The translations under genes were made by a program, and so were the position numbers. This document shows positions 26,374 through 41,946 of a stretch of 48,201 bases of DNA, piece by piece (the stretch's first letter is position 1; every line of letters begins with the position of its first letter). The notes under the pieces were generated by a model. It made no database searches, had not been told where the DNA came from, and was given only the letters and a program-made list of their open reading frames with translations. Location: assembly GCA_021740085.1 (NCBI GenBank), contig JAIPAL010000010.1, positions 1-48,201 of the forward strand. Reading direction: 5' to 3'. Source of the stretch: Crocinitomicaceae bacterium. Its GTDB lineage: Bacteria > Bacteroidota > Bacteroidia > Flavobacteriales_D > Crocinitomicaceae.

Positions 26374-28332
26374 ATGGTTAAAAATTACACTTCCGGCCCT
26401 TTTTTAAGTCAAATAGTAAATCCGGGTGATTTAAGATCGAAATTCTCGACCGATGATTTAATTCAGGTTTCTGACGAATTACGTCAATATATTGTTGATG
26501 TAATTTCGGAGATTGGAAATAGCCATTTTGGTGCAAGCCTTGGTGTAGTTGAATTAACCGTTGCCTTACATTATGTTTTTAATACACCTCAAGACCAATT
26601 GGTATGGGATGTTGGACACCAAGCATATGGGCATAAAATATTAACGGGTCGACGAGAAAATTTTCATACCAACCGACTAAAACATGGAATTTCGGGCTTT
26701 CCAAAGAGGTCAGAAAGTGAGTATGATACCTTTGGTGTTGGACATTCCTCCACTTCAATTTCAGCCGCATTAGGAATGGCAGTTGCCAATCGTTTAAAGG
26801 GACAATTAAATACACAGCACATTGCGGTTATTGGAGACGGAGCAATGACAGCAGGATTAGCATTTGAAGGATTGAATAATGCAGGCTTTGAAAAAGACAC
26901 TAATTTATTGGTGATTTTGAATGATAATTGTATGTCGATTGATCCAAATGTTGGTGCCTTAAAGGAATATCTAACTGATATAACTACATCACATACTTAT
27001 AATAAAGTAAAAGAGGAGGTTTGGAAGTTATTAGGTAAAATATCCACATTTGGGCCTGATGCCCAATCCATTGCATCAAAAGTATCAAGTGCTTTAAAAG
27101 GAAGTTTATTAAAGCAAAGCAATCTATTCGAAGCGTTAAATTTCAGGTACTTTGGTCCGGTTGATGGGCATGATGTAATTGGTTTGGCTAAAGTTTTAGA
27201 AGATCTGAAAGACATTCCAGGGCCTAAAATTTTACATTGTATTACAAGAAAAGGAGCCGGTTATAAGTATTCTGAAGAAGGCAACCCAACGAAATGGCAT
27301 GCGCCTGGAATTTTTAATAAAGAAACGGGTGAGATCGTAAAAATAATTCCGAAGTCACCCCAAGCCCCTAAATACCAAGATGTATTTGGCCATACAATTG
27401 TTGAATTAGCAGAAAAAAACGAAAAAATTGTAGGGGTAACGCCAGCCATGCCTTCCGGATCGTCATTAAATGTTATGATGAAAGCCATGCCAGAAAGAAG
27501 TTTTGATGTTGGTATTGCCGAACAACACGCCGTAACATTTAGTGCAGGAATGGCTACACAAGGTCTTGTTCCCTTCTGTAACATTTATTCGTCCTTTATG
27601 CAAAGGGCCTATGATCAAGTAATTCATGATGTCGCAATTCAAAATCTGAATGTTGTTTTTTGCTTAGACCGTGGCGGATTAGTTGGAGCAGATGGAGCAA
27701 CACATCATGGAGCATATGATTTAGCTTATATGCGTTGTATTCCCAATATGGTGGTATCAGCTCCAATGAATGAAGAAGAATTAAGGAACTTAATGTACTC
27801 TGCCCAACTCGAAGATAGGGGCCCCTATTCTATTCGCTATCCTAGAGGAAATGGTGTGATGTTGGATTGGAAAACACCTTTTAAAGAAATTAAAACGGGG
27901 AAAGGTAGAAAAATTACAAATGGTGAAGACATTGCCATACTTTCTATTGGGCATCCTGGAAATTTTGCGCAAGAAGCAATTGCTAAAATGAGCGATTCCG
28001 GGATTTCTATTGCCCATTACGATATGCGCTTTGCAAAGCCTGTAGATGAATTGTTACTTCATGAAATTTTCAGCAAGTTTAAAAAAGTCATAACCATAGA
28101 AGATGGTTGTATTATGGGTGGTTTTGGTTCAGCAATTATTGAATTTATGGTAGATCAAAAGTATCAATCAGAAGTTGTACGACTTGGCATTCCAGATGAA
28201 TACATTCATCATGGTACACAAGAAGAATTATGGGATGAATGTGGATTTGATGTAGCGGCCATTATAAAAACCATTGAGAAACTAGTTAGTATTGCGCAAT
28301 CGTCTACTTCCTCATTTATCCAAGCTGGTTAA
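26374..28332 (+). CDS. dxs: 1-deoxy-D-xylulose-5-phosphate synthase
   Basis: 652 residues, near the usual family length. Thiamine-diphosphate site: VWDVGHQAYGHKILTGR and GDGAMTAGLAFEGLNNAG. Transketolase-like second domain: FDVGIAEQHAVTFSAGMA with the catalytic Glu, and CLDRGGLVGADGATHHGAYD. C-terminal domain ends with EDGCIMGGFGSAI. It condenses pyruvate and glyceraldehyde 3-phosphate to DXP, the first step of the MEP isoprenoid pathway. The second enzyme, dxr, is encoded at 42461 in this window. It is divergent from the oxidase operon. Confidence 0.96.
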   Translation: MVKNYTSGPFLSQIVNPGDLRSKFSTDDLIQVSDELRQYIVDVISEIGNSHFGASLGVVELTVALHYVFNTPQDQLVWDVGHQAYGHKILTGRRENFHTNRLKHGISGFPKRSESEYDTFGVGHSSTSISAALGMAVANRLKGQLNTQHIAVIGDGAMTAGLAFEGLNNAGFEKDTNLLVILNDNCMSIDPNVGALKEYLTDITTSHTYNKVKEEVWKLLGKISTFGPDAQSIASKVSSALKGSLLKQSNLFEALNFRYFGPVDGHDVIGLAKVLEDLKDIPGPKILHCITRKGAGYKYSEEGNPTKWHAPGIFNKETGEIVKIIPKSPQAPKYQDVFGHTIVELAEKNEKIVGVTPAMPSGSSLNVMMKAMPERSFDVGIAEQHAVTFSAGMATQGLVPFCNIYSSFMQRAYDQVIHDVAIQNLNVVFCLDRGGLVGADGATHHGAYDLAYMRCIPNMVVSAPMNEEELRNLMYSAQLEDRGPYSIRYPRGNGVMLDWKTPFKEIKTGKGRKITNGEDIAILSIGHPGNFAQEAIAKMSDSGISIAHYDMRFAKPVDELLLHEIFSKFKKVITIEDGCIMGGFGSAIIEFMVDQKYQSEVVRLGIPDEYIHHGTQEELWDECGFDVAAIIKTIEKLVSIAQSSTSSFIQAG

Positions 28333-28431
28333 TCTTACCTATGCCTATACTAGTTTTTGACTACCTATAGTTAGTATTGAAAACCAGTTTTTCATCAAAA
28401 TTTATTTTTAAAAAGAGCGGAGCAATTTTAA

Positions 28432-28452
28432 TTATTGTATTTTCGACAATTA
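28432..28452. promoter_or_regulatory. Candidate operator (site A) before the sugar transporter
   Basis: TTATTGT, seven bases, then ACAATTA form a near-perfect 21-bp palindrome 16 bases before the GTG start. Related palindromes lie upstream of susC and of the 39706 gene. The likely binder is the Nudix-type regulator encoded two genes into this operon (inference). Confidence 0.5.
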
Positions 28453-28463
28453 TTTTAATTTAA

Positions 28464-28484
28464 TAATTGTGAAAAAAACAAATT
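28464..28484. promoter_or_regulatory. Candidate operator (site B) overlapping the transporter start codon
   Basis: TAATTGT, seven bases, then ACAAATT: a weaker copy of site A. Its centre is 32 bases from that of site A, about three helical turns, so two dimers could bind on the same face. It overlaps the GTG at 28469. Confidence 0.35.
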
Positions 28485-29890
28485 TCGGCGCTTTTGGTAC
28501 GCTCATTACCATCTTTTTCTTTTGGGGCTTCGTTGCCGCTAGTAACGACATACTAATTCCGGTATTTAAAAAGGCACTAAGTCTAAGTCAATTTGAATCT
28601 CAATTGATTTCCTTAGCTTTTTATATTGCTTATACCGTTGGGTCCTTACTGTATTTTGGAATTTCTTCTTTACTGAAAAGAGATATTTTAAATGTTATCG
28701 GCTACAGAAATGGCTTGGCTTTAGGATTAATTATATCAGCTTTAGGGACGTTACTTTTCATTCCGGCTTCAAATAATGCCTCATTCCCCTTATTGATTTC
28801 AGGACTATTTACCGTTGGATTAGGTTTTTCCTTACAACAAATTGCTGCAAATCCGTTGGCAATAAAAATGGGAGACCCTTCAAAAGGGAATATGCGACTG
28901 AGTTTGGCGGGGGGAATTAACAATGTCGGAACGACTATTGGCCCCGTAATTGTTTCATTCGCGATTTTTGGAGGCTTGTCTTCAGGGGAAACCACCTTAA
29001 ACTTACAGGCTGTTCAAACGCCATATCTTTATCTCGGTCTTGCATTTGTAATTGCTGCCATTTTTTTCAAATTCTCATCTGTGCCTGATAGAATGACAGA
29101 AGATGCAGAGATTAAAGGAGGTAATATAATGGCCACCTTAAAATATCCTCAAGTTATATTAGGGATGATCGCTATTTTTGTTTATGTGGGCGTTGAGGTT
29201 GCTACAGCCAGTAATCTACCAGAATTCATGAAACAGAAATTAGGAACAGAGGAAAGTGCTGTTGCTCCTTTTGTATCTTTGTTTTGGGCAAGTTTAATGA
29301 TTGGACGTTGGACTTCTGCTGCAGGAGCCTTTAATTTTTCAAATCAAATTAAATCATTACTTGGGTTTGTTTTGCCTTTTGCTGCATTTGGAATTTTTCT
29401 TTTCGTAAACTGGATTGCCGGGAATTCCATGGCGCAATTCTATCCTTATCTTAGTCTTGTAGTATTATTAATTATCGCGGATAAATTCAGCAAAGGAAAT
29501 CCAGTTAATCAAATTATGATTTATTCCACCTTGGGTATTTTAGCTTTAATAGTTGGTATTTTTTCTTCGGGAATAATAAGTGTCTTTGCTTTTATTTCTG
29601 TTGGGTTATTTTGTAGTACTCTTTGGCCGTGTATTTTTACACTTGGAATTGCCGGATTAGGCGATAAAACAAATACTGCATCTAGCTTATTAATTATGAT
29701 GATTATGGGAGGTGGATTTATTTCTACTGCACAAGGTGCACTTGCTAGTAACGATTTGTTGGGTATTCAACATTCCTATTGGGTAGGAGTAATCTGTTTT
29801 ATGTATTTATTGTTCTTTGCCTGGAGTGTAAGAAAAACGTTAATAAATCAAGGGATTACAGACTTCTCTACCAAGGAGGGGTCACATTAA
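28469..29890 (+). CDS. Sugar MFS transporter (FucP/glucose-galactose type)
   Basis: 473 residues with about twelve membrane helices. The start is GTG at 28469. The segments FFFWGFVAASNDILIPVFKKAL, AFYIAYTVGSLLYFGI and LQQIAANPLAIKMGDPSKGNMRLSLAGG belong to the FucP/GluP branch of the MFS, proton symporters for monosaccharides. The later GVEVATASNLPEFMKQKLG and MIGRWTSAAGAF agree. At the head of a locus encoding GH16 and GH3 glucanases, glucose is the likely substrate (inference). It is followed after 23 bases by the Nudix-type regulator gene. Confidence 0.9.
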   Translation: MKKTNFGAFGTLITIFFFWGFVAASNDILIPVFKKALSLSQFESQLISLAFYIAYTVGSLLYFGISSLLKRDILNVIGYRNGLALGLIISALGTLLFIPASNNASFPLLISGLFTVGLGFSLQQIAANPLAIKMGDPSKGNMRLSLAGGINNVGTTIGPVIVSFAIFGGLSSGETTLNLQAVQTPYLYLGLAFVIAAIFFKFSSVPDRMTEDAEIKGGNIMATLKYPQVILGMIAIFVYVGVEVATASNLPEFMKQKLGTEESAVAPFVSLFWASLMIGRWTSAAGAFNFSNQIKSLLGFVLPFAAFGIFLFVNWIAGNSMAQFYPYLSLVVLLIIADKFSKGNPVNQIMIYSTLGILALIVGIFSSGIISVFAFISVGLFCSTLWPCIFTLGIAGLGDKTNTASSLLIMMIMGGGFISTAQGALASNDLLGIQHSYWVGVICFMYLLFFAWSVRKTLINQGITDFSTKEGSH

Positions 29891-29913
29891 GCAAATTATT
29901 AAAAAAGCAGTTT

Positions 29914-30609
29914 ATGTATCGAATAAATTTTAGCGATTTTTTCACCTCCGCTTTTTCTGTTGATTGCATGTTATTTGGTTATTCTCAAGGACAGATAAAA
30001 GCGTTGCTAATAAAGCGGGCAATGGAACCATATAATAATTTTTGGGCTATACCCGGGGATTTAGTATATCCCGATGAAGATCTTGATGAAGCGGCAAATA
30101 GGATTTTAAAAGACCTCACCGGTTTATCCGATGTTGGCTTGCATCAGGCGCAATCATTTGGCCACCCTAAGCGCCACCCTCAAGGGCGAGTTGTCACTGT
30201 TTCTTACTTTGCAATGGTTCGTATTGAGGATTTTAATGCAAAAGCATCTTCATGGGCAGATGAAATTTCTTGGGTTCCCATTCATGACATTCCAGTTTTG
30301 GCATTTGATCACAACTTGATTATGGCCACAACAATTGAACTACTTAAGCAAAAATTGCGCGTGGAACCCATCTGTTTTGATATGTTGCCGGATCGGTTTA
30401 CCTTAAGTGAATTCCAGCAGCTTTATGAATACGCCTTTAATCAGTCATTAGATAAAGCGAATTTTAGAAAAAAAATAAAGCATATTCCCCTTCTTGCGCA
30501 TGATGAGAAACAAAAAATGGTGAAGCACCGCCCAGCAAAACTATTTTCCTTTGCTAAAGAAGATTATAAAACGAAGGTCGAAACCATTGATTATCAGTTT
30601 AAAATGTAG
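29914..30609 (+). CDS. Nudix-domain transcriptional regulator (NrtR/AraR type)
   Basis: 231 residues from the ATG at 29914; an earlier in-frame start at 29779 lies inside the transporter gene and is rejected. Residues about 12-145 are a Nudix fold and residues about 150-231 a winged helix (TLSEFQQLYEYAF, ANFRKKIKHIPLL). The Nudix box (48-71) keeps Gly48, Glu55, Arg63 and Gly70, but RExxEE is replaced by RILKDL, so the catalytic glutamates are gone. This is the pattern of Nudix proteins that sense sugar or nucleotide ligands and bind DNA, such as AraR of Bacteroides. It probably controls the surrounding beta-glucan locus through the palindromes at 28432, 30634 and 39627. Confidence 0.88.
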   Translation: MYRINFSDFFTSAFSVDCMLFGYSQGQIKALLIKRAMEPYNNFWAIPGDLVYPDEDLDEAANRILKDLTGLSDVGLHQAQSFGHPKRHPQGRVVTVSYFAMVRIEDFNAKASSWADEISWVPIHDIPVLAFDHNLIMATTIELLKQKLRVEPICFDMLPDRFTLSEFQQLYEYAFNQSLDKANFRKKIKHIPLLAHDEKQKMVKHRPAKLFSFAKEDYKTKVETIDYQFKM

Positions 30610-30633
30610 GCATATTTGTCTTTTAATTAAAAC

Positions 30634-30654
30634 TTATTGTCCCTTTTACTATAA
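30634..30654. promoter_or_regulatory. Candidate operator upstream of susC
   Basis: TTATTGT, seven bases, ACTATAA: a 21-bp palindrome with one mismatched pair. It shares 18 of 22 positions with the site before the 39706 gene. It lies 12 bases before the -7 box, where a repressor would block RNA polymerase. Confidence 0.5.
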
Positions 30655-30666
30655 TTAAATTTTTAG

Positions 30667-30674
30667 TATATTTG
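30667..30674 (+). promoter_or_regulatory. Candidate -7 box of the susC operon
   Basis: TATATTTG matches TAnnTTTG and lies 18 bases before the susC ATG at 30693. No TTG lies at the ideal -33 distance; the upstream palindrome occupies that region. Confidence 0.45.
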
Positions 30675-30692
30675 CTAACTAAACCTTATCAA

Positions 30693-33600
30693 ATGATTAA
30701 ACATATACTACTGACGGTTACCTTGTTTCTCTCTGGAATCTATGCTTTTTCTCAAAACACTACAGTTTCTGGCGTAGTTCTAAATGAGCAAAACGAGCAA
30801 ATTCCTTTTGTTACAGTTGTTGAGAAGGGGCAAAAAAATGGTGTGGTAACCGATCTTAAGGGGAATTACAGCATAACACTAATCGACACAAGCAAAGCAA
30901 TTTTAATTTTTTCGTTTTCGGGCTATGCGAAAACCGAAATACCGGTTAATGGAAGAAAGATTGTCGATGTGCTTATGTCTAATTTCATTACTAAAGATGT
31001 TGAGGAAGTGGTAGTGGTTGGTTATGGTACTTCTAAAAGTAAAGAGTTAACAGGTGCTAGTACAAAAGTAGGTGGAGAAAACATTGAAAAGCTAAATATA
31101 TCGCGAGTTGATCAAGCCTTGCAAGGCCAGGTTGCAGGAGTAAATGTTTCTACAAACTCTGGTTCGCCCGGTGGCTCTGCAAATATTAGAATACGGGGAA
31201 TCTCTACTTTCGGCGACAATGACCCCTTGATATTAGTTGATGGGATTGTTTATGACTCTGAGGGCTTAAATGCATTAAATCCATCGGATATAAAGTCGGT
31301 GAATGTATTGAAAGATGCTACGGCAGGAATCTATGGTGTGCGTGCTGCAAATGGTGTTATTATTGTCGAAACGAAAAATGGAAGCATGAATTCCAAGCCA
31401 AAATTTGAATACAATGCGTATTATGGGATTCAACAAACAGCTCGAAAACTTGATCTACTGACTGCCCAAGAATATGCGGTAATAAAAAATGAAATGTTCG
31501 CAATGGGAGGCCAAGCAATGCCTTTTGCCAACACAAATATTGGAATTGGCACGCCATGGCAAGATTCTGTATTTACTACCTCACCTGTTCAAAGTCACAA
31601 TTTAAGTTTAAGTGGGGGGACATTAAATACCAAGTATTCTATTGGTTTAGGTTATTTTACCCAAGATGGAATCGTTGGTGGTTCCAAATCACATTTTTCT
31701 AGATACAATGCTCGACTTAATTTTAGTACCGATATGTCGGCAAAGCTAAAATTAAATTCGGTGCTTCTTTTCTCCAATGATTCAAGAAATACCTTACCTG
31801 AAAATGGTATTGGTTCGGTTTTGTACAATACTATAAATGCTTTTCCAAACGAACCGGTTTATACGCCTAATGGTCAATTTTCTTATCTTGAAGAAGTGAG
31901 CGACATCATTAACCCAATTGCACAAATTAAAAATCAATACAACTGGGGAACCGCGGCAAAATTCGTCGGGAAAGAAGAGTTCGTTTATGCCTTTAATGAA
32001 AACCTTTCTTTCACTAATCGATTCAATTATAATTATTCCATAATTAATTCAAAAGTATTTTCGCCCTTGGTTTGGTATGGTGACGGAAAATATGCTAATA
32101 CAGCGATTAATGAAGCATTAGAGTCGCCAACGGTTGAGATCGCAGACAGTGTGTTTATTGAGCGTGGCGCAGCGGTTTACGAAGAACGATCAAGCTATTT
32201 GGACTTATCTTATGAGGGCTTCTTAAATTATGACAGAACGTTCCAAGAGGTCCATACTTTTAAGGGAACCGCAGGGATTTCTATTTTTCAACGTAAGGGA
32301 GAGTCACTCAATGGAACTGGCTACGGGATACCGAATAACTCTTTAGATTATGCCGATATTTCAGCTAATACGGCACAAGGTGGTTTTTTAAATAATGTTG
32401 GTTCGTGGGAATTTAAAGAGCGTTTGATTTCTTCCTTTATGCGCTTGGAATATGCTTATGATTCCAAATACCTTTTCTCAACTATTTTAAGACGAGATGG
32501 ATCTAGTAAATTTGGCCCGAATAGCCGTTATGGCTTTTTTCCGACTTTTTCTGGTGGATGGCTACTTTCGGAGGAAAAGTTTTATAACCTTAAGTTTATT
32601 AACTTTTTGAAGTTTAGGGCTAGCTTCGGTGTTTCGGGGAATGATCAGATTCCGAACTTTGCTTACCGTGGATTGTTAAACGGAGAAGGGGTGTATGTTT
32701 TTAATGACGTAATTACGCCCGGCGTTGCAATTGGAAGGCCATCAAATCCAGATTTGAAATGGGAAACAACCAGACAGTTTAACATTGGTGCAGATATGAC
32801 ATTTTGGAATAAATTAGACTTTACGACAAATTATTTTATTAAGAATACCTTCGATTTACTCTTTCAGCCCGAAGTAACGGCGGTTTTAGGCTCTTATGGC
32901 CCGGGTGGATATCCGCCAATAATAAATGCTGGAAATGTATCTAATAAAGGAGTTGAGTTGGAATTGGCCTACAAAACGCAGCGCAAAAAACCGTTCACGG
33001 CTGATTTAAATATAAACTTCACGACAATTTCAAATAAAGTTACTGCAGTTCCAGAAGGAGTTGATTATATTCCAGGTGCGCAATTTAGCGTAGGAGGAGA
33101 TGTAGCCACACGGTTCCAAACAGGATATGAAATCGGCTATTTTTTCGGTTATGAAACGGCGGGAATTTTTCAAACGCAAGAAGAAATTGATAATGCAGCA
33201 GTGGTTCAGGATGGCGCTCAGCCAGGGGATTTAATCTTTGTTGATCAAAATGGGGATGGCGTAGTGAATTTTAATGGCGATTTGGACAAAACGTATTTGG
33301 GATCACCAATCCCTGACTTCACCATGGGCTTTGCATTTAATTTGAAATACAAAGGGTTTGATCTCTCAGGAAGCCTTTATGCAGCTATCGGTCAGGAAAT
33401 TATTAGAAACTATGAACGTCAACAACCTTATGCCAATCAGTTAGGTTATGTGGTAGATCGTTGGACAGGACCAGGATCGACCAATGAGCACCCAAGAGTA
33501 ACTACTGGTCAGACTAGAAATAATGTTTTTTCTTCCTATTTTGTTGAAGATGGATCCTTTGCTCGTTTAAAAAACATTCAATTGGGCTACACTGTTCCTT

Positions 33601-33791
33601 CTCAAAAATTAAAGCGCTTGAAAATAGATTCTTTCAGAATTTATACAGCAGTAAACAATTTATTTACCCTAACCAAGTATCAAGGATTTGACCCTGACAT
33701 TGGTTCTCCTGGAGTTTTAGCAGCTGGAGTAGATTACGGATTTTATCCGCAAGCAAAAACGTATATGGTAGGTATTCAACTTAAATTTTAA
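30693..33791 (+). CDS. SusC/RagA-family TonB-linked outer-membrane transporter
   Basis: 1032 residues from the ATG at 30693 (TTG at 30672 rejected). Signal peptide ending AFS-Q; carboxypeptidase-like regulatory domain (about 20-95, TVSGVVLNEQNEQIPFVTV); TonB box region EEVVVVGYGT; plug domain (about 110-235) with VDQALQGQVAGVNV, IRIRGISTFGDNDPLILVDG and IYGVRAANGVIIVETK; then the 22-strand barrel ending YMVGIQLKF. It imports oligosaccharides across the outer membrane with TonB energy and pairs with the SusD protein encoded 3 bases downstream. The locus context points to laminarin-like oligosaccharides. Confidence 0.95.
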   Translation: MIKHILLTVTLFLSGIYAFSQNTTVSGVVLNEQNEQIPFVTVVEKGQKNGVVTDLKGNYSITLIDTSKAILIFSFSGYAKTEIPVNGRKIVDVLMSNFITKDVEEVVVVGYGTSKSKELTGASTKVGGENIEKLNISRVDQALQGQVAGVNVSTNSGSPGGSANIRIRGISTFGDNDPLILVDGIVYDSEGLNALNPSDIKSVNVLKDATAGIYGVRAANGVIIVETKNGSMNSKPKFEYNAYYGIQQTARKLDLLTAQEYAVIKNEMFAMGGQAMPFANTNIGIGTPWQDSVFTTSPVQSHNLSLSGGTLNTKYSIGLGYFTQDGIVGGSKSHFSRYNARLNFSTDMSAKLKLNSVLLFSNDSRNTLPENGIGSVLYNTINAFPNEPVYTPNGQFSYLEEVSDIINPIAQIKNQYNWGTAAKFVGKEEFVYAFNENLSFTNRFNYNYSIINSKVFSPLVWYGDGKYANTAINEALESPTVEIADSVFIERGAAVYEERSSYLDLSYEGFLNYDRTFQEVHTFKGTAGISIFQRKGESLNGTGYGIPNNSLDYADISANTAQGGFLNNVGSWEFKERLISSFMRLEYAYDSKYLFSTILRRDGSSKFGPNSRYGFFPTFSGGWLLSEEKFYNLKFINFLKFRASFGVSGNDQIPNFAYRGLLNGEGVYVFNDVITPGVAIGRPSNPDLKWETTRQFNIGADMTFWNKLDFTTNYFIKNTFDLLFQPEVTAVLGSYGPGGYPPIINAGNVSNKGVELELAYKTQRKKPFTADLNINFTTISNKVTAVPEGVDYIPGAQFSVGGDVATRFQTGYEIGYFFGYETAGIFQTQEEIDNAAVVQDGAQPGDLIFVDQNGDGVVNFNGDLDKTYLGSPIPDFTMGFAFNLKYKGFDLSGSLYAAIGQEIIRNYERQQPYANQLGYVVDRWTGPGSTNEHPRVTTGQTRNNVFSSYFVEDGSFARLKNIQLGYTVPSQKLKRLKIDSFRIYTAVNNLFTLTKYQGFDPDIGSPGVLAAGVDYGFYPQAKTYMVGIQLKF

Positions 33792-33794
33792 GAC

Positions 33795-35255
33795 ATGAAG
33801 CGATTTAAACAGGTTATTTTTAGTGTACTTATTGTTTTCTTATCGGCAGGTTGCGATAAATTTCTTAACATAGATCCTCCCTATACGCAGGATGTAGAAA
33901 ACTTTTTTGAAACGAAAGAAGATTATGAGCGTGCTTTAACTGGCGCATATGATTTACTTCAGGGTTCGTTCATGTCATTTTGGATTGGTGAAATAGCTTC
34001 TGATAATTCAATTGCTGGTGGAGAAAGTGTAAATGACTCTCAAGGATTACATCAAATTGATGACATGACTCACGGTGGCGTAAACAATGAGCTACGAAAT
34101 GTACTTAGATGGAATTATGCTGGAATCACCCGCGCTAATTATCTCTTAGAAAACAAGGATAAAATTGATTTTCAAGGGAAAGAACATATCATTGCTGAAG
34201 CTAGATTCCTACGAGCATATTATTATTTCGAACTGGTAAAGTTTTTTGGGGACATTCCGCTTATTATTGATAAAAGAATTGGTATTGAAGAGGCAATGCA
34301 ATTGCCAAGAACACCGAAAGCAGAAGTTTATGCTCAAATAGAAGAGGATTTTACCTATGCTGCGTCCATATTAAATCCGGTTGCAAGTCAAAAAGGCCGT
34401 GCGACAAAAGGAGCTGCATTGGCATTTTTAGGGAAGGCTTATTTATACCAAAACAAATTTGCGCAAGCAGCGTCAACTTTTGATGAAGTGATTGCTATGG
34501 GCATGTATAGTTTAATTCCTGATTATAATTTGTTATTTGCAGCAAACAATGAAAATAATAGCGAAACAGTTTTTGATGTTCAATATTCTGGCTTAGAAGG
34601 TGGCTCTTATGGTTGCTATATTTGTTTAGAGGGAAATGCTGCAGTTGGTTTCCAGGGTATACGTCAATATAATGGACCTGTTTACGGTGATGGAAACAGC
34701 TACAACTTGCCTACGCAAGCGCTTTATGATGCTTTTTCTTCACTTGATCTTCGCAGAGGAGCAACAATTTTAGATATTGATGCTTTTATAGCAACCCAGC
34801 CAAACCCATCCTCGATTTCTTATGCTCTTGGCGCAGGAGGTCATACGGGTTTTTACAATAATAAGTATATAAAAAGGCAAGGTGAAATCGGATTGCCGGA
34901 CAATGATTTAACTAGTCCTGTAAATTATCGAGTAATTCGTTATGCAGATGTACTTTTAATGGCAGCTGAAGCGCATTATCAGAGTGGAAACACAGCTACA
35001 GCGCAGTCCTTAGTTACTCAAGTACGTCTTCGAGTAGGTGTTCAACCTATTCCTGTTAATTCCCTTGATGTCATTTACAGAGAAAGACGTTATGAATTAT
35101 CTGGTGAGGGACATCGCTTTTTTGACTTAGTTAGAACAGGAAAAGCCGCTGATTTTATTAATGGTTTTGTGGCTGGAAAGCATGAGGTTTTTCCGATACC
35201 TCAAGTGGAAATAGATTTAGCAGGAGGAAATTGGCCTCAAAATAATGGATATTAA
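33795..35255 (+). CDS. SusD/RagB-family glycan-binding lipoprotein
   Basis: 486 residues. Lipoprotein signal ending FLSAGC (Cys20), followed by DKFLNIDPP, the usual start of mature SusD proteins. The TPR-like helical core includes AEARFLRAYYYFELVKFFGDIPL and GAALAFLGKAYLYQNKF. The C-terminal region has the conserved YRVIRYADVLLMAAEAHYQSG and YRERRYELSGEGHRFFDLVRTG. It caps the SusC barrel and binds the glycan substrate at the surface. Just 3 bases separate it from susC, so the pair is co-transcribed. Confidence 0.95.
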   Translation: MKRFKQVIFSVLIVFLSAGCDKFLNIDPPYTQDVENFFETKEDYERALTGAYDLLQGSFMSFWIGEIASDNSIAGGESVNDSQGLHQIDDMTHGGVNNELRNVLRWNYAGITRANYLLENKDKIDFQGKEHIIAEARFLRAYYYFELVKFFGDIPLIIDKRIGIEEAMQLPRTPKAEVYAQIEEDFTYAASILNPVASQKGRATKGAALAFLGKAYLYQNKFAQAASTFDEVIAMGMYSLIPDYNLLFAANNENNSETVFDVQYSGLEGGSYGCYICLEGNAAVGFQGIRQYNGPVYGDGNSYNLPTQALYDAFSSLDLRRGATILDIDAFIATQPNPSSISYALGAGGHTGFYNNKYIKRQGEIGLPDNDLTSPVNYRVIRYADVLLMAAEAHYQSGNTATAQSLVTQVRLRVGVQPIPVNSLDVIYRERRYELSGEGHRFFDLVRTGKAADFINGFVAGKHEVFPIPQVEIDLAGGNWPQNNGY

Positions 35256-35265
35256 ATTAATATAG

Positions 35266-36117
35266 ATGAAAAAGACTCTTTTTTTAATAGCAAGTATTTC
35301 TATGCTCTTTATTGGGTGTAAAAAAGATAATCCACAATTAGGAAATCCACCTACTTTAGCAGAGGCATCGTTTACGTATAGCGTTTCTTCAACAAGTGCG
35401 AATGTTCTTAATCTAACGGCCGCCAGCCAGAATTACCAATGTTTGTGGGATTTTGGCAACGGGGTAAAAGCTCAAGGGGCAACAGCAGTAGCCTCTTATC
35501 CATACGCTGGAACGTATACTATAAAGCTAACGGTTTTTAATAATGGTGGAAGCAGAAGCACTACCCAAGATGTTGTAATAGCCCAAACAGACTTATCACT
35601 CCTTAACAACCCAATATTTACAAAGTTAACAGGTGGTGCAAATGGTCCTGGATTTAAAACGTGGGTGATTGATTCTACCCAAACAGGGCATATGGGCGTA
35701 GGGCCAGACCCAGAAAGTGCTTTAGGAACTGTTCCTGAGTGGTGGGCTGCAGGTCCTTTGGATAAAGCAGGGGTAGGACTTTACAACGACAAATATATTT
35801 TTACATTAAACGGATTTAAGTTTGATATGATTACCAATGGTGACGTTTATGTGCATAACTCCTTGTCCGGCAGTTTTCCAGGGTCCTTTCAAAACCTAGG
35901 CGATTTTACAGCCCCGTATGGAGATCAATTAGATAAAACTTGGCTTTTAGAGGAAGGTGCCTCACCAACCATTACCGTTTCAAATGGATCCTTTTTAGGA
36001 TTCTACACAGGGGTATTAACTTACCGTATATTAGATTTAACTGATTCAACCATGCAACTACAGTATGGACACCATGCTGGTGGTTTGAAGTGGTACTTGA
36101 AATTAAAAACAGAATAA
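35266..36117 (+). CDS. PKD-domain surface glycan-binding lipoprotein
   Basis: 283 residues. Lipoprotein signal LFIGC (Cys18) followed by KKDN, a sequence that fits surface export of Bacteroidota lipoproteins. Residues about 30-108 are a PKD domain (CLWDFGNGVKAQGATAVAS, YAGTYTIKLTVFNNGG). Residues about 120-283 are a beta-rich domain with many Trp and Gly (GFKTWVIDS, VPEWWAAGP) that ends ITVSNGSFLGFYTG, MQLQYGHHAGGLKWYLKLK. The last part resembles the N-terminal domain of the protein encoded at 39706. It takes the place of SusE/SusF in this locus; a glycan-binding role is inferred. Confidence 0.82.
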   Translation: MKKTLFLIASISMLFIGCKKDNPQLGNPPTLAEASFTYSVSSTSANVLNLTAASQNYQCLWDFGNGVKAQGATAVASYPYAGTYTIKLTVFNNGGSRSTTQDVVIAQTDLSLLNNPIFTKLTGGANGPGFKTWVIDSTQTGHMGVGPDPESALGTVPEWWAAGPLDKAGVGLYNDKYIFTLNGFKFDMITNGDVYVHNSLSGSFPGSFQNLGDFTAPYGDQLDKTWLLEEGASPTITVSNGSFLGFYTGVLTYRILDLTDSTMQLQYGHHAGGLKWYLKLKTE

Positions 36118-36131
36118 CTAACTTTTAGAAT

Positions 36132-37220
36132 ATGAATATTAATTGCTTATTGATTATTTCCCTTGCAGGAATAACAGCGTGTAAAAAACCCGTTCCACCT
36201 GCAGTTACCTTGCCAAGTAATCTCCAAACAACGTTTGTTGTTACTAATGGAGCTGTAGCTGTTTCAGCCCAGGCCGAAAACGCAAACTTTTACACGATGA
36301 CCTTCTATCATGGAAACGATTCAACAGTGGTAGAATCTCAAGCCGGCACCGCTACTCACGTATTTACAGTGTCGGGGACATATACCATTAAAACGAAGGC
36401 TCACGCTACTTATGCTGATTACATATCAAAAACGGATTTAGTACAAGTGACTGTCTCTAATGGTCAAGGCGGTCAGCCTTCTTCGGGATATACAAGTCCA
36501 CTGACGTATCCTAATTATACATTAGTTTGGCAAGATGAATTTAATGGGACAGCCTTGTCAACTGATTGGACCTATGATATTGGTAACGGCTCATGGGGGT
36601 GGGGTAATAACGAATTGCAGTACTATACCAACCAGAATGCTACAGTAGCTAATGGCGTATTGCAAATTCAGGCCAAACAAGAACAGTTCAATGGACAGGC
36701 ATATACTTCATCAAGGATAAAAACTCAAGGCTTAAAATCTTGGAAATATGGTAGAGTTGATATTCGCGCAGCCCTTCCATATGGTCAAGGGATATGGCCG
36801 GCTTTGTGGATGTTGGGGGATAATATCACCTCTGCGGGTTGGCCAGCTTGCGGTGAAATTGATATTATGGAAATGAAAGGTGGTGCAGGTGCCAATGATA
36901 GAACTACTTTTGGAACGATACACTGGCAAGATAATGGTGCACATGCCCAATACGGCGGAACTACAACCTTAGCTAGTGGAAAATTTGCTGATGAATTTCA
37001 CGTTTTTTCAATTGTTTGGGACCAAGCCGGGATTCATTGGCTTTTGGACAATGTGGAATTTAAGTCTGTTAGCACAACACCTGCAGAACTTAGCGAATTT
37101 CAGGAAAAATTCTTTTTAATTTTTAACGTAGCTGTTGGTGGAAATTTCCCAGGAAATCCAGATGCTACCACGGTCTTACCTCAATCTATGTACGTGGATT
37201 ATGTAAGAGTTTTCCAATAA
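36132..37220 (+). CDS. GH16 endo-beta-1,3-glucanase (laminarinase-type) lipoprotein
   Basis: 362 residues. Lipoprotein signal GITAC (Cys17), then a PKD-like or Ig-like domain (about 25-112) and a GH16 catalytic domain (about 120-362). Catalytic motif: GEIDIMEMKG, with Glu242 as nucleophile, Asp244 as helper and Glu247 as acid/base; the extra Met before the second Glu (the beta-bulge form) is typical of laminarinases rather than kappa-carrageenases. WQDEFNG, GIWPALWMLG and FFLIFNVAVGGNFPG agree. It should cut internal beta-1,3 bonds of laminarin-like glucans at the cell surface. It starts 14 bases after the PKD lipoprotein gene. Confidence 0.93.
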   Translation: MNINCLLIISLAGITACKKPVPPAVTLPSNLQTTFVVTNGAVAVSAQAENANFYTMTFYHGNDSTVVESQAGTATHVFTVSGTYTIKTKAHATYADYISKTDLVQVTVSNGQGGQPSSGYTSPLTYPNYTLVWQDEFNGTALSTDWTYDIGNGSWGWGNNELQYYTNQNATVANGVLQIQAKQEQFNGQAYTSSRIKTQGLKSWKYGRVDIRAALPYGQGIWPALWMLGDNITSAGWPACGEIDIMEMKGGAGANDRTTFGTIHWQDNGAHAQYGGTTTLASGKFADEFHVFSIVWDQAGIHWLLDNVEFKSVSTTPAELSEFQEKFFLIFNVAVGGNFPGNPDATTVLPQSMYVDYVRVFQ

Positions 37221-37256
37221 GAATTGAAAATAAGTTCAAAGAATAATTTGATTAGT

Positions 37257-39590
37257 ATGAAAGTTATTACGTTCGTTTTAGGGGCTTGTCTTTGCGTTTT
37301 TGTATCGTGTAAAAGTGCTAATGAAGTGGTTCAGCAGGCTAATGTTCAGGCCTCTTTCTCGCTTCCTACAGAAGATGAACAGGAAATTAATAACTTGATT
37401 GCTAAGATGAGCTTAGCGGAAAAGGTTGGTCAGACCTGTCAAATTACACTTGATGTCTTGCTGAAAACAAATTCCGATGGATCAGCAAGAACGATAGCGG
37501 AAATTAATGAAGAAAAGTTAAAAGAGGCCATTGAGGTGTATAAAGTGGGTTCCGTCTTAAATGTGGGAAGCCACACCTTAGGTCTTACAGAATGGGAAGG
37601 TATTCTGAAGGCTGTACATCGAAATTATCAGCAAGGCCTTTCGAGAGTTCCGGTTATTTATGGTGTAGATGCTATTCACGGGGTAAACTATACGGTAGGT
37701 GGCACATTATTTCCCCAGGAAATAGGATTAGCTGCAACATGGAATCCATCATTAGCAGGAACTTTTGGTGAAATTACCGCCTATGAATTACGCGCTTCCG
37801 GAATTCCTTGGAATTTTTCACCTGTGTTGGATTTAGCACGTCAACCATTATGGTCCAGAACATTTGAAACACTTGGCGAAGATCCTTATTTAGCGTCGCA
37901 AATGGGTGCAGCAATAGTGACCGGTTACCAAGGAAAAGGGGGAGTTGACGCCTTTCATGTCGCGGCGTGTATGAAACATTTTGTCGGTTATTCTGCAACT
38001 ACTAGTGGAAGAGATCGAACACCAGCTTGGATTCCCCAAAAATACATGACGGAATTGTATTTACCATCGTTTAAAAAAGCAGTAGAGGCTGGTGCCCTAA
38101 CCGTGATGATTAATAGTGGCGTCGTGAATGGTATTCCAGGCCACACGAATTATGATTTAATCACCAAAACATTAAAACAAGATTGGGGATTTCAAGGTTT
38201 TGCAGTATCCGATTGGGAGGATTTTATTATGCTTCATACGGTTCATAGGACAGCTCCTACGCTTGCTGATGCCTACATACAATCGTTTAATGCCGGTGTT
38301 GATATGAGTATGGTGCCACTCAGCCCACAGTATAAGGAATATTGTAAACTCATGATGGAAGCTGTTCAAGCTGGAAAAATTACGGTGGAGCGCTTAGATG
38401 ATGCCGTGCGAAGAATTTTACGCGTTAAAATGAAACTGGATCTTTTTAAGCATCCAATTCCAACTTTCTCGATGTATCCCGATTTCGGATCAACCAAATT
38501 TAAAATTATAGCTAAACAAGCGGCAACAGAATCAATAACCTTATTGAAAAACAATCAAGGCACACTTCCTTTAAACACAAAACAAAAAGTAATGATTGCT
38601 GGTCCTACAGCGGATAATTTAATTTTTCTAAATGGGGCTTGGACCCACACCTGGCAAGGAGTCGAAAAACAATACAATACCAAGGGCTGCTTAACCATCA
38701 GAGAAGTGTTTGAACAAAAGTTAGGGAAAGAAAATTGTCTGTATGCTCCTGGCGCATCCCTCACCCTTGACGAAAAAGGTTATGAAAAAACAGTTTATAC
38801 CGACTTAAAAGAATATAATTCAATGCTCGATAAAGCAGATGTTCTTGTTCTTTGTTTAGGAGAACTTCCCGCTACGGAAAAACCGGGTGATATTCTTAGT
38901 TTAAATTTAGATCCGCAACAGCGTGAACTTGCGAAGCTGGCCTATGCAAAAAATAAAAAGGTTGTACTTGTTCTTTTAGAAGGAAGACCGAGAATTATTC
39001 ATGATATTGTTGATAGCGCTTCGGCCATTATTCAATGTTACTTGCCAGGAGATTATGGTGCAGAAGCCTTAATTAATTTGATGTATGGAGAGGCAAATTT
39101 TAGCGGCAAACTTCCTTATACGTATCCAAAACATGATGGCGTAATCGAATTTTATGACCACCCAAGAAGTGTAGATCGATCTAAAGATGGTTCTTTTAAT
39201 GCGTATGATCCAGAATGGGATTTTGGATTTGGCTTATCGTATTCAAAAGTTACTTACTCTAAGCTAACGTTGAACAATTCCATGATGCATAAAAATGATA
39301 GCCTTAGGGTGTCTGTTTTTATCCAAAACGAAAGTAATCTGAAAACAGATGAGGTGGTCCAATTGTATCTCAGTGACCAATATGCTAGCTTTGTGCCTAC
39401 CGGAAAAAGTCTAAAACGTTTTGAGAAAGTTTCCCTTCAAGCAAATGAGCGCAAAGAGCTTGTTTTTTACCTTTACCCCGAAGATCTAAAATTTGCTGAT
39501 CACGCTGGAAATGATATGCTTGAACAAGGAGATTATACCCTTTCAATTGGCAACCAGCTACTTGATTTTAAATTCTTATTAACTAATTAA
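37257..39590 (+). CDS. GH3 beta-glucosidase lipoprotein
   Basis: 777 residues from the ATG at 37257; a TTG at 37224 would add eleven residues before the signal and is rejected. Lipoprotein signal VFVSC (Cys18). N-terminal GH3 TIM barrel with IYGVDAIHGVNYTVGGTLFP, KHFVGYS and the nucleophile region FAVSDWEDF (Asp319). The second domain (SITLLKNNQGTLPL, GDYGAEALINLMYGEANFSGKLPYT) and a C-terminal FnIII-like domain (about 660-777) complete the usual three-domain form. It releases glucose from beta-glucan oligosaccharides made by the GH16 enzyme. It is the last gene of the susC operon. Confidence 0.93.
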   Translation: MKVITFVLGACLCVFVSCKSANEVVQQANVQASFSLPTEDEQEINNLIAKMSLAEKVGQTCQITLDVLLKTNSDGSARTIAEINEEKLKEAIEVYKVGSVLNVGSHTLGLTEWEGILKAVHRNYQQGLSRVPVIYGVDAIHGVNYTVGGTLFPQEIGLAATWNPSLAGTFGEITAYELRASGIPWNFSPVLDLARQPLWSRTFETLGEDPYLASQMGAAIVTGYQGKGGVDAFHVAACMKHFVGYSATTSGRDRTPAWIPQKYMTELYLPSFKKAVEAGALTVMINSGVVNGIPGHTNYDLITKTLKQDWGFQGFAVSDWEDFIMLHTVHRTAPTLADAYIQSFNAGVDMSMVPLSPQYKEYCKLMMEAVQAGKITVERLDDAVRRILRVKMKLDLFKHPIPTFSMYPDFGSTKFKIIAKQAATESITLLKNNQGTLPLNTKQKVMIAGPTADNLIFLNGAWTHTWQGVEKQYNTKGCLTIREVFEQKLGKENCLYAPGASLTLDEKGYEKTVYTDLKEYNSMLDKADVLVLCLGELPATEKPGDILSLNLDPQQRELAKLAYAKNKKVVLVLLEGRPRIIHDIVDSASAIIQCYLPGDYGAEALINLMYGEANFSGKLPYTYPKHDGVIEFYDHPRSVDRSKDGSFNAYDPEWDFGFGLSYSKVTYSKLTLNNSMMHKNDSLRVSVFIQNESNLKTDEVVQLYLSDQYASFVPTGKSLKRFEKVSLQANERKELVFYLYPEDLKFADHAGNDMLEQGDYTLSIGNQLLDFKFLLTN

Positions 39591-39626
39591 TAGTTTTTTA
39601 GCCAATTAAGTTAAAAAAATAATCAC

Positions 39627-39647
39627 TTATTGTATTTCTTACTATAT
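39627..39647. promoter_or_regulatory. Candidate operator before the tandem-repeat glycan-binding gene
   Basis: TTATTGT, seven bases, ACTATAT. It matches the susC site at 18 of 22 positions when one extra flank is included, and it overlaps the -7 box at 39643-39650, as expected for a repressor site. Confidence 0.5.
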
Positions 39648-39650
39648 TTG
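39643..39650 (+). promoter_or_regulatory. Candidate -7 box of the tandem-repeat glycan-binding gene
   Basis: TATATTTG matches TAnnTTTG. Transcription would start near 39656, giving a leader of about 50 bases to the ATG at 39706. No ideal -33 TTG is present. Confidence 0.4.
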
Positions 39651-39705
39651 TCTTTGAACTTTATTAAATTTATATTGTTATTCAATTAACTTAAATTATT
39701 TTACT

Positions 39706-41148
39706 ATGAAAAAACTATTACTATTTTTAGCATTCCCAATTTTAGGTGTATCTGCCCAAATTGAGGGAACCTGGAAACTGGCAGGTCAGGCAGGTGCCTT
39801 AGCTGTTGGTCCAGCATTGAATAATCTAACTTGGTTTTCAAGTTCTTTAGGCGACGTTACCACGAGAGCTTGTTTGTTCGACGATTCAATTAAATTTGCC
39901 CCTGGAGGTGCCATGACGCATTACATGGATGGAAGCACTTGGTTGGAAGCATGGCAAGGTGCTCCTGAAGGTTGCGGTACGCCTATCGCTCCTCACACAG
40001 GTGGTGCAGCAACTTATACGTTTGATGCCGCGTTAGGTACCTTAACGGTTAATGGTTTAGGCGCTCATTTGGGCTTGGCGAAAGTACACAACGCCGGTGA
40101 GCTCACAAGTCCTGCTGGAGCAGTTTCCTCTATTACTTACAACGTGCTTTTCTCTAACGGAGGAAATACCATGACTGTTCAAATTAATTTTGGTCCAGGA
40201 TGGTGGCAGTTTGTTTATCAAAAAACGGTAGTTATTAACCCTCCAACACCAAATATCACATTTAAAGTAGATATGAGTCAGTATGCTGGCCCTGCATATA
40301 CTGGGGTATTTGTTAACGGAACATTCAACGGTTGGAATGGTACTTCAAACCCAATGTCAGATGCAAATATGGATGGCGTTTGGGAGGCCACAGTTCCAAT
40401 TGGTGCTGGAGCTATTGAGTACAAGTTTACCCTTGATGGTTGGAATGGTCAGGAACAATTTGTTGGTGGTGAGACTTGTACCGTTACTAATGGAGGATTT
40501 ACAAATCGTTCATACACTGTTACTGGCGATGCTACTTTAGGCACTGTTTGTTATAACAGTTGTACCGCTTGTGCTAGCAATGTTACTTTCAAAGTAGACA
40601 TGGCTAATTATGTTGGTCTGCCTTACACAGGTGTTTTCATAAATGGAACATTCAACAATTGGTGTGGAGCGTGTAATCCAATGACGGATGCCAACATGGA
40701 TGGAATTTGGGAGGTTACTCTTCCATTACCAAATGGTTCAATCGAATATAAGTTCACCCTAGATGGTTGGAATGGTCAAGAGCAATTTGTTGGTGGTGAG
40801 CCTTGCACAGTAACAAATGGAGGATTTACGAATCGTTCATATACTGTTGCTGGAATAGCTGATTTAGGCGTTGTATGTTATAATACTTGCGCTGCTTGTG
40901 TTTCTGGTATCGAAGATATATCAAGCCAGGTGGTATCGGTTTATCCAAACCCATCTAATGGAAACTTGACAGTTGTGGCTAATTCATCAGCAATCTTGAG
41001 CAACATTACAAACATTATGGGTGAGACAGTCATGTCATTAAAAGGCAATGAAAGTAGCATCAATATTGAGAGCTTAAACGCTGGTATTTATTTCTTGAAC
41101 TTCACTGTGAAAGGAGAGAACCAAACAATCAGAATAGTTAGAAATTAA
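39706..41148 (+). CDS. Secreted protein with tandem carbohydrate-binding-like repeats, T9SS type A
   Basis: 480 residues with a signal peptide ending VSAQ. Residues about 19-175 are a beta-rich domain (EGTWKLAGQAGALAVGP to GPGWWQFVYQK) resembling the C-terminus of the PKD lipoprotein encoded at 35266. Two 109-residue repeats follow (from NITFKVDM and from NVTFKVDM), each with GVFxNGTFNxW, DANMDGxWE and EYKFTLDGWNGQEQFVGGE, like CBM48/AMPK-type early-set carbohydrate-binding domains. The last 80 or so residues (SVYPNPSNGNLTVV, AGIYFLNF) are a type A sorting signal. It probably binds beta-glucan at the surface or outside the cell. It is transcribed alone, between its own promoter and a strong terminator. 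Confidence 0.85.
   Translation: MKKLLLFLAFPILGVSAQIEGTWKLAGQAGALAVGPALNNLTWFSSSLGDVTTRACLFDDSIKFAPGGAMTHYMDGSTWLEAWQGAPEGCGTPIAPHTGGAATYTFDAALGTLTVNGLGAHLGLAKVHNAGELTSPAGAVSSITYNVLFSNGGNTMTVQINFGPGWWQFVYQKTVVINPPTPNITFKVDMSQYAGPAYTGVFVNGTFNGWNGTSNPMSDANMDGVWEATVPIGAGAIEYKFTLDGWNGQEQFVGGETCTVTNGGFTNRSYTVTGDATLGTVCYNSCTACASNVTFKVDMANYVGLPYTGVFINGTFNNWCGACNPMTDANMDGIWEVTLPLPNGSIEYKFTLDGWNGQEQFVGGEPCTVTNGGFTNRSYTVAGIADLGVVCYNTCAACVSGIEDISSQVVSVYPNPSNGNLTVVANSSAILSNITNIMGETVMSLKGNESSINIESLNAGIYFLNFTVKGENQTIRIVRN
40252..40905 (+). repeat. Two tandem 327-bp coding repeats
   Basis: Units 40252-40578 and 40579-40905 encode the two carbohydrate-binding-like domains. They are most alike over the segment encoding DGWNGQEQFVGG and NGGFTNRSYTV, where DNA differences are mostly silent. 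The second unit has WCGAC where the first has WNGTS. Confidence 0.8.
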
Positions 41149-41166
41149 GGATATCAACACCTAGTT

Positions 41167-41196
41167 AAAGGGGCGATTTTTTCGCCCCTTTTTTTT
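41167..41196 (+). terminator. Rho-independent terminator of the beta-glucan locus
   Basis: GGGGCGA and TCGCCCC pair around a five-T loop, extended by AAA/TTT, and the stem is followed by a run of eight or more T residues on the plus strand. It lies 18 bases after the stop at 41148. Confidence 0.9.
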
Positions 41197-41259
41197 GTCA
41201 ATAAAATTCGTAATTCAGTTAAATGAATAATTATTTTTATCTTGTCGGTATATATTAGG

Positions 41260-41508
41260 ATGCCAACACCACAAGACCAATCGAATAATCCCTTGCATGG
41301 GATAACGCTAGAGAAAATGCTCACTGAACTCCATGAAAAATTTGGCTGGGAGAAGCTCGCTTATTTTATTCCTATAAATTGTTTTAGTCACGAGCCTAGT
41401 GTAAAATCAAGTTTAAAATTTTTGAGACGCATGCCATGGGCTAGAGCCAAGGTCGAAAAACTGTACCTCGACCGAATTGTAAGTGAAAAGCTTAACGGCT
41501 TTGATTAA
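41260..41508 (+). CDS. VF530/DUF2132-family DNA-binding protein
   Basis: 82 residues from the ATG at 41260 (a TTG at 41242 is rejected). [58 protein letters not shown] matches the small VF530 family (DUF2132), for which DNA binding has been reported in a structural study as I recall. The protein is short, helical and mostly basic in its second half. It stands alone after the terminator of the glucan locus and is not obviously linked to it. Confidence 0.85.
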
Positions 41509-41571
41509 TTTTTATGGAATTTAGATTTCGTGTTCTCCTAGACCTTTCCTTAATGATCACTTTATCTTTTG

Positions 41572-41579
41572 TACTTTTG
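41572..41579 (+). promoter_or_regulatory. -7 box four bases before a start codon
   Basis: TACTTTTG matches TAnnTTTG, and only four bases separate it from the ATG at 41584, so a transcript from this box would begin at about the A of the start codon. No -33 TTG is evident. Confidence 0.3.
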
Positions 41580-41583
41580 TACT

Positions 41584-41946
41584 ATGGATTACGATATTGA
41601 ATTACGCTTTAATGCCTTAAAAACTCATCTTGAGCTGACTTTTGGAGGTGGAATGGATGTCCAAGCAATCTTATTTTTGATAGGGGTGAATGAATTGGGT
41701 CAAGGGCATAAAAATTATACGAAAGCGGAAAAAACAGATTTACTTCATATAGCCATTTGCACTTTATTAGAACCATATGGCTATTACCAATTTGAAGGGC
41801 GTGACAAAGAAAATTGGCCACATTTTAAGGTGTTAAAAGCGATTCCTGCTATTACCGACAGGGAACAACAGCACCTTATTAAAGAAGCGATGATAGATTA
41901 TTTTGTTGCCAATGAGTATTATTTGGAGGAGAAACCGCTTAATTAG
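41584..41946 (+). CDS. Conserved hypothetical protein of Bacteroidota type
   Basis: 120 residues from the ATG at 41584; a TTG at 41569 would add five residues. It begins MDYDIELRFNALKTHLELTFGGGMDVQAI and contains GVNELGQGHKNYTKAEKTDLLHIAICTLLEPYGYY, all predicted helical with a short polar loop. No signal peptide or membrane segment, so it should be cytoplasmic. I think I have seen similar small proteins across the phylum but cannot name a family or function. Its stop lies 5 bases from the stop of the convergent lipoprotein gene. Confidence 0.7.
   Translation: MDYDIELRFNALKTHLELTFGGGMDVQAILFLIGVNELGQGHKNYTKAEKTDLLHIAICTLLEPYGYYQFEGRDKENWPHFKVLKAIPAITDREQQHLIKEAMIDYFVANEYYLEEKPLN

Follow-up and report, generated by a model that had tools for sequence, protein, structure and literature searches.

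Among the sugar regulators described in Bacteroidetes, the closest counterpart of the system analyzed here is BtAraR (BT0354), the arabinose repressor of Bacteroides that belongs to the NrtR family. As described in the available part of its report (PMC4666351), this protein recognizes a 21-bp motif, is released from DNA upon sugar binding, and controls a regulon comprising susCD, glycosidases, an inner-membrane transporter and its own operon. The same partial text describes Lys179 contacting G7 and Arg180 intercalating, and these contacts define a GTGT motif; the operator geometry that can be deduced from them places GTGT at positions 7-10 and ACAC at positions 18-21 of the 27-bp duplex. BtXylR (BT0791), the xylose regulator of Bacteroidetes, is a member of the same NrtR sugar family but is linked to xylose genes (available parts of PMC3878776 and PMC4666351). 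For aquatic Bacteroidetes, β-glucans of the laminarin type rank among the major carbon sources (available part of PMC11345257). Among the open-licence papers listed in literature searches, none dealt with a Nudix-type regulator for genes of laminarin or β-glucan use. This section concerns a stretch of 48,201 nucleotides (the window), which is one contig (JAIPAL010000010.1) of the 2.41-Mb, 88% complete genome (G000) of a Crocinitomicaceae bacterium (assembly GCA_021740085.1). Three copies of a 21-bp palindrome, TTATTGT-N7-ACAATAA, precede genes of a probable β-glucan cluster in this window. Very probably, these are the operators of a Nudix-winged-helix regulator encoded in the cluster (29914-30609), the binding, its sign and its effector being predicted by comparison.

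Comparison with the described regulators

The preliminary description of this DNA had recognized a Nudix-type regulator at the locus, and family searches bear this out: a Nudix-like domain is followed by the NrtR winged helix, with PF00293, PF21906 and PF19368 all above cut-off. Computed conservation, presented below, points in addition to palindromes at the target promoters, that of the regulator's own unit included, as is typical of NrtR-type proteins. The best solved relative is BtAraR itself (5bs6, E 7.6e-47). In the alignment, the glutamates of the Nudix REUXEE motif (as defined in the available part of PMC4666351) read I, D and L, so that the catalytic motif is impaired.

The regulator and BtAraR are alike in their two-domain fold, in the sugar-contacting residues R34, R86 and H131 (AraR numbering throughout), in the length of the 21-bp motif and in a comparable regulon make-up. 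This triad is kept in 56/56 regulators, the window's included, and so are the DNA-contacting residues K179, N181, R183 and K184. The two proteins differ, however, in the lining of the pocket, where F36 is replaced by M, V or I, F49 by L and G48 by D, and in the intercalating R180, which is A in all 56 regulators. The sites of the genus carry a TTGT half-site, unlike the GTGT of BtAraR, and the regulator stands among β-glucan-type genes whereas BtAraR stands among arabinose genes; no arabinose-catabolic clustering is seen among the neighbors of the locus. Retention of the triad together with a changed pocket lining makes a sugar other than arabinose the likely effector; the gene neighbors prompt the guess of glucose or a short β-glucoside. 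The ADP-ribose-responsive NrtR of NAD genes (SoNrtR, 3gz5) shares the domain layout and the impaired Nudix motif, but the NCBIfam equivalog model NF050029 scores 149.3 of the 400 bits needed, and no NAD gene occurs among the ten open reading frames scanned (26374-41946). By these comparisons the regulator is an AraR-like member of the NrtR family.

Three palindromic sites and their conservation

All three candidate operators lie on the forward strand. Operator 1 (TTATTGTATTTTCGACAATTA, 28432-28452) is located 5' of the transporter/regulator pair and operator 2 (TTATTGTCCCTTTTACTATAA, 30634-30654) 5' of susC, each agreeing with the symmetric consensus at 13 of 14 arm positions. Operator 3 (TTATTGTATTTCTTACTATAT, 39627-39647), 5' of the gene encoding a CBM48-like repeat protein (hereafter the CBM gene), agrees at 12 of 14, its right arm being merged with a -7 box. 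The -7 consensus of Bacteroidetes is TAnnTTTG, and putative boxes reading TATATTTG are found at 30667-30674 (forward strand), just 3' of operator 2 in the susC promoter, and at 39643-39650 (forward strand) in the CBM-gene promoter, where the box overlaps operator 3. Re-reading the sequence confirmed the site coordinates given in the preliminary description, and also its count of 18 matching positions out of 22 between the susC site and the 39.6-kb site. Its placement of the third site over a -7 box, and of the susC site just upstream of one, agrees with the putative boxes and with the conserved TATATTT and ACTATATT elements described below. A weaker second copy before the transporter (28464-28484, forward strand, 11/14) was on the other hand rejected as a tandem operator: it covers the GTG start codon (28469) and is missing in close relatives, among them L115, L116 and L119. 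The spacing of 32 bases between centers, from which helical phasing had been proposed, is therefore unsupported. The right arm of operator 1 also forms, with bases beside this start codon, a perfect inverted repeat, ACAATTATT-N7-AATAATTGT (28446-28470); relatives like L115 and L116 do not retain its second arm.

Conservation was examined in 58 ortholog stretches from 57 genomes of the genus (G083 being represented twice and G021 left out) together with the window. The gene order around the regulator ortholog is largely conserved in these 58 stretches. Each upstream region, the window's included, was scored for its best match to TTATTGT-N7-ACAATAA. A site at 12-14 of 14 positions was found in 47/47 susC upstream regions and in 40/50 transporter upstream regions, and a site at 11-12 of 14, with a right arm always reading ACTATAT, in 36/36 CBM-gene regions. 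Dinucleotide shuffles reach at least 12/14 in about 0.5-1.2% of cases, to be compared with the 40/50, 47/47 and 35/36 observed for transporter, susC and CBM gene, respectively. The palindrome is thus kept upstream of every orthologous susC gene examined, and the lack of conservation that would have spoken against the preliminary description did not appear. Once rows with alike flanks had been removed (12, 26 and 25 remaining), the information content was 1.81, 1.89 and 1.98 bits at the 14 arm positions against 0.32-0.97 bits in the flanks; the spacer is also conserved at the transporter and at the CBM gene (1.63 and 1.47 bits). The sequence ACTATATT is constant, at the same place, in all 36 CBM promoters, and the CBM site looks imperfect because its right arm doubles as this -7 box. 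In 57 sequences, one of them a chance match, A is preferred at position 8 and T at position 14, which widens the symmetry to TTATTGTA-N5-TACAATAA. A different MFS gene (41-51% identity) apparently occupies the place of the transporter in G079, G104, G099 and G003, and the operator is still present there at 13-14 of 14; the transporter of G083 is similarly diverged and the site is missing.

Near-perfect copies of the motif do not recur at many unrelated sites of the genome, another outcome that would have counted against the preliminary description. The pattern given there occurs at 6 places in the 2.41-Mb genome, against 3 for a control read backwards; three of the six are operators 1-3 and the others (contigs C23, C54 and C63) fall inside open reading frames. 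Allowing at most one mismatch to the symmetric pattern leaves 3 places: 28432, 30634 and an unlinked one, C94:4653. Within the window, a matrix built without close kin scores the three operators at 26.8, 26.7 and 22.6, the next place on the forward strand reaching 9.7. A matrix built exclusively on 26 sites from other clades, the window's clade left out, was used to score 150 of 4060 candidates in the window genome. The transporter site ranked first (18.6 bits), the CBM site second (16.6), a site upstream of zwf third (C75, 15.6), the susC site fourth (14.3) and the unlinked C94 site, which precedes a gene named here P0003, next (13.8), followed by 13.1 bits. An earlier matrix that includes the window's own sites, applied to 150 of 4831 candidates, gives a circular ranking. 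Near-perfect palindromes within open reading frames of other contigs (L177-L183, L187) were rejected as operators.

Association of the palindrome with the regulator

The regulator query matched 81/86 genomes of the genus. By score and identity an ortholog was counted in 59 of the 86 (with the fragments of G021, G034 and G083 taken as orthologs), while the remaining 27 hold the paralog only, a small fragment or nothing. The near-perfect palindrome TTATTGT-N7-ACAATWA, searched anywhere in these 86 genomes, occurs in 52/59 with the regulator ortholog and in 4/27 without it. The control pattern read backwards gives 8/59 and 6/27, so that 4/27 corresponds to the background. Of the four ortholog-less genomes concerned, G026 and G035 have their matches in open reading frames, G075 has a true transporter site and G102 is the fourth. 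In G018, G097 and G093, the regulator is not followed by susC, and palindromes are found on other contigs 5' of CBM genes that have GH16 or GH3 neighbors.

Several results weigh against assigning the palindromes to this regulator. The Fisher p value of the association, 5e-11, is inflated by the relatedness of the 86 genomes. Nine transporter promoters (L162-L169, L171), that of the diverged G083 transporter among them, have no site, a tenth siteless region (L148) being cut off by a contig end, and 7/59 genomes with the ortholog lack the near-perfect form. G075, which is 100% complete, has no ortholog and yet a perfect palindrome 5' of the transporter (L189:4330, G075:C105), which may be an orphan site or point to an unseen regulator; G010 (74% complete) has the P0003 site and no ortholog was found in it. 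In the window genome, the E-values given by the matrix from other clades are modest (0.009 to 0.3), and at up to two mismatches the symmetric pattern occurs at 66 places against 76 for the control. Because this is background level, the 39.6-kb site taken alone has no significance and draws its support from conservation in the 36 homologous promoters.

One competing explanation is that the palindromes belong to another carbohydrate regulator, such as the second NrtR-type protein of the genus or a Crp-like factor, the local Nudix protein being a mere neighbor. The site of G075 and the existence, in most genomes of the genus, of a paralog with a similar palindrome between its gene and an adjacent kinase-like gene lend it some weight. 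This explanation is nevertheless unlikely: 23/27 genomes without the ortholog have no near-perfect TTGT palindrome, though most of them hold the paralog, and the paralog region and zwf carry GTGT-type sites instead.

Predicted mode of action

If the regulator behaves as its relative, an AraR-like dimer would bind TTATTGT-N7-ACAATAA with one winged helix per arm and would repress three transcription units by covering their promoters, at the -7 box for the CBM gene and just 5' of it for susC. The GH16 and GH3 enzymes would break down β-glucan outside the cytoplasm, and the MFS transporter would import the products. The degenerate Nudix pocket would then be occupied by a sugar, with glucose or a short β-glucoside as the most likely candidates, and the DNA would be released. 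Since the regulator gene begins 23 bases behind the transporter gene, under operator 1, the regulator would also repress its own gene. Dimer binding, repression and release by the sugar are carried over from AraR. The repressor regulon of the preliminary description is supported by the conserved susC sites and by the co-occurrence of palindrome and regulator. That description had predicted a small regulon with autoregulation; the few sites in the genome and the position of operator 1 at the head of the transporter/regulator unit agree with it, while its limits were drawn too narrowly, at least one member (P0003) being unlinked. The prediction provides a regulator, an operator, a small list of targets and a concrete residue-to-base hypothesis for β-glucan use.

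The opposite sign, an activator binding the palindromes when loaded with sugar, also goes against the repressor proposed here. The susC site is located just 5' of the -7 box, in the -33 region, where some activators bind as well. This possibility is judged improbable, given that the CBM site overlaps the -7 box and that the characterized relative AraR loses DNA upon sugar binding (available part of PMC4666351). A still weaker reading takes the sites as shared promoter elements of the -33/-7 region, whose conservation would serve RNA polymerase rather than a repressor. Indeed, the last susC palindrome is followed by TATATTT in 45/47 regions and by TAnnTTT in all 47, and the CBM site covers its box. 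The two-fold symmetry of the sites, with perfect arms in 33/47 susC regions, makes such a reading very improbable, as do the distance from the best site to the susC start codon, which varies from 59 to 213 bases, the presence of two palindromes in 27 susC regions and the fact that sites track the regulator. Finally, a chance likeness of AT-rich promoter DNA, to which the background frequency of two-mismatch matches might have pointed, has a negligible probability and is refuted by conservation far beyond that of the shuffled sequences.

A paralog with a probable operator type of its own

The paralog mentioned above (G000:C46:6963, L322) is 43% identical to the regulator. It lies opposite the kinase-like gene, and the intergenic palindrome of the window genome reads TTTGTGT-N7-ACACTAT; judging from their first residues, the neighboring genes resemble maltodextrin genes. 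In 20 paralog-kinase intergenic regions, the best match of the GTGT type scores 9-12 of 14 (12 in four, 11 in six, 10 in nine and 9 in one, as scored with no shuffle control), and 19/20 read GTGT-N7-ACACT. These GTGT sites probably belong to the paralog. At positions 179/180, the pair K-A is found in 56/56 regulators and K-R in 20/20 paralogs.

A survey of helix and operator was extended beyond the genus to 53 more matches within the order, a site being called at 12/14 letters or more within up to 4 kb, less at the ends of stretches. Matches ending before residue 195 were left out (L360, which has a GTGT site, and one of two L361 pieces). At this weak threshold about 0.24 chance TTGT matches are expected per 8.7 kb, and rows with 13-14 letters count most. 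TTGT sites accompany 10 KA regulators (two rows sharing one site, L342), GTGT none, and 6 have no site; the figures are 13, 0 and 2 for KG regulators. The TR regulators show 3 TTGT, 0 GTGT and one tie, and the KR regulators 0 TTGT, 5 GTGT, two ties and 6 without a site. KP, RR and SP have one GTGT site each, IR has none, and a degenerate gene (HK) has TTGT. Each of the three ties is a hybrid that combines a TTGT-type arm with a GTGT-type arm, and no outright exception occurs among the 53. Residue pair and clade are confounded: proteins of the KA, KG and TR types are at least 44% identical to the window regulator, and 11/13 KR proteins fall below 44%. L385 and L393, the KR proteins closest to it (47.5%), have no clear site within the range searched and do not break this confounding.

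It is tentatively proposed that a sugar repressor was duplicated and that the K179/R180 change turned the copies into two orthogonal regulators, together with a switch at zwf and a short RNA in sister clades, a combined claim that falls somewhat short of an even chance. If this holds, KR would read GTGT-N7-ACAC, and loss of R180 (to A or G) or of K179 (to T) would go with TTGT-N7-ACAA. One base per half-site would then separate the β-glucan regulon from a starch/central-carbon regulon, the zwf operator would have been caught in mid-switch in part of the window's clade, and, in two sister clades, a short terminated RNA 5' of susC would likewise be under the control of the β-glucan regulator.

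Unlinked sites

P0003 (C94) encodes an unlinked, secreted protein of 439 amino acids in which a type IX secretion system (T9SS) tail is the sole Pfam recognition. Its ortholog is present in 48 genomes, 44 of which have the regulator, the other four (G010, G035, G085, G102) being 74-84% complete. A site scoring at least 12, beginning 31-48 bases 5' of the gene, is found in 30/30 of the orthologs examined, against 0.4% in the shuffled control. Because the site is kept in all of these, the predicted regulon is small with at least one unlinked member.

The case of zwf is different. This gene is present in 27 of 30 genomes searched, and the three without it (G012, G066, G096) are the only ones of those 30 without any Nudix-regulator match. 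A sequence of the type TTAGTGTA-N5-GACAC lies upstream in 24/27, including G026, which has no ortholog; with such a GTGT-type left arm, zwf was rejected as a clear member of the β-glucan regulon, and its site is more plausibly assigned to the paralog. Only G000, G087 and G098 have TTATTGT as the left arm, a possible regulon switch. The zwf site of the window genome is G000:C75:18857 (L236). In G093 and G003 (L250, L251), a GH2-like gene has a similar site, AGTTTTTGTAATTTGTACAATATTA, at its start; a divergent GH3 gene is seen in G003.

Gene content of the locus and upstream elements

A family search of the ten open reading frames between 26374 and 41946 gave the following gene order. DXS (26374-28332) is followed by an MFS sugar transporter (28469-29890; GTG start), for which the nearest NCBIfam models, NagP, gluP and fucP, are each below cut-off, and by the regulator, with its Nudix-like sensor domain and NrtR/AraR winged helix (ATG at 29914). 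Then come a SusC-type TonB-dependent transporter (30693-33791), a SusD-like glycan-binding lipoprotein (33795-35255), a PKD-domain protein (35266-36117), a GH16 glucanase-type enzyme (36132-37220), a GH3 β-glucosidase-type enzyme (37224-39590) and the secreted CBM48-like repeat protein with a T9SS sorting tail (39706-41148). All of these from the transporter onwards are on the forward strand. The GH16, GH3 and SusCD set points to a probable cluster for β-glucan use; the name CBM48 denotes a module of α-glucan enzymes.

The 27 susC regions with two palindromes between regulator and susC (L123-L134, L153, L159; L135, L140, L142-L149, L151, L152, L154) share a common layout. The first palindrome is followed by a -7-like box and then by a segment of about 75 bases predicted to form two hairpins, the last of which has a T-run behind it; the second palindrome comes next, ahead of susC. 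An unpaired linker, CAGGTTAATAATCA or CAATGGTTAAATACTTAG, is nearly invariant. This element, absent from the window, may be a short, terminated transcript controlled by the same operator; Rfam gave no match in L125, L143, L165 or the window.

In L163, L165, L167 and L169, where operator 1 is missing, another symmetric sequence, TTTTGGTC...GACCATG, is present just 5' of the transporter start codon. A hairpin element resembling that of the two-palindrome regions, but lacking the T-run, occurs in the susC leader of L162-L169 and L172. Its paired bases change together, from GTGGGGAG/CTCCCCAC to GCAGGGAG/CTCCCTGC in L168 and L169.

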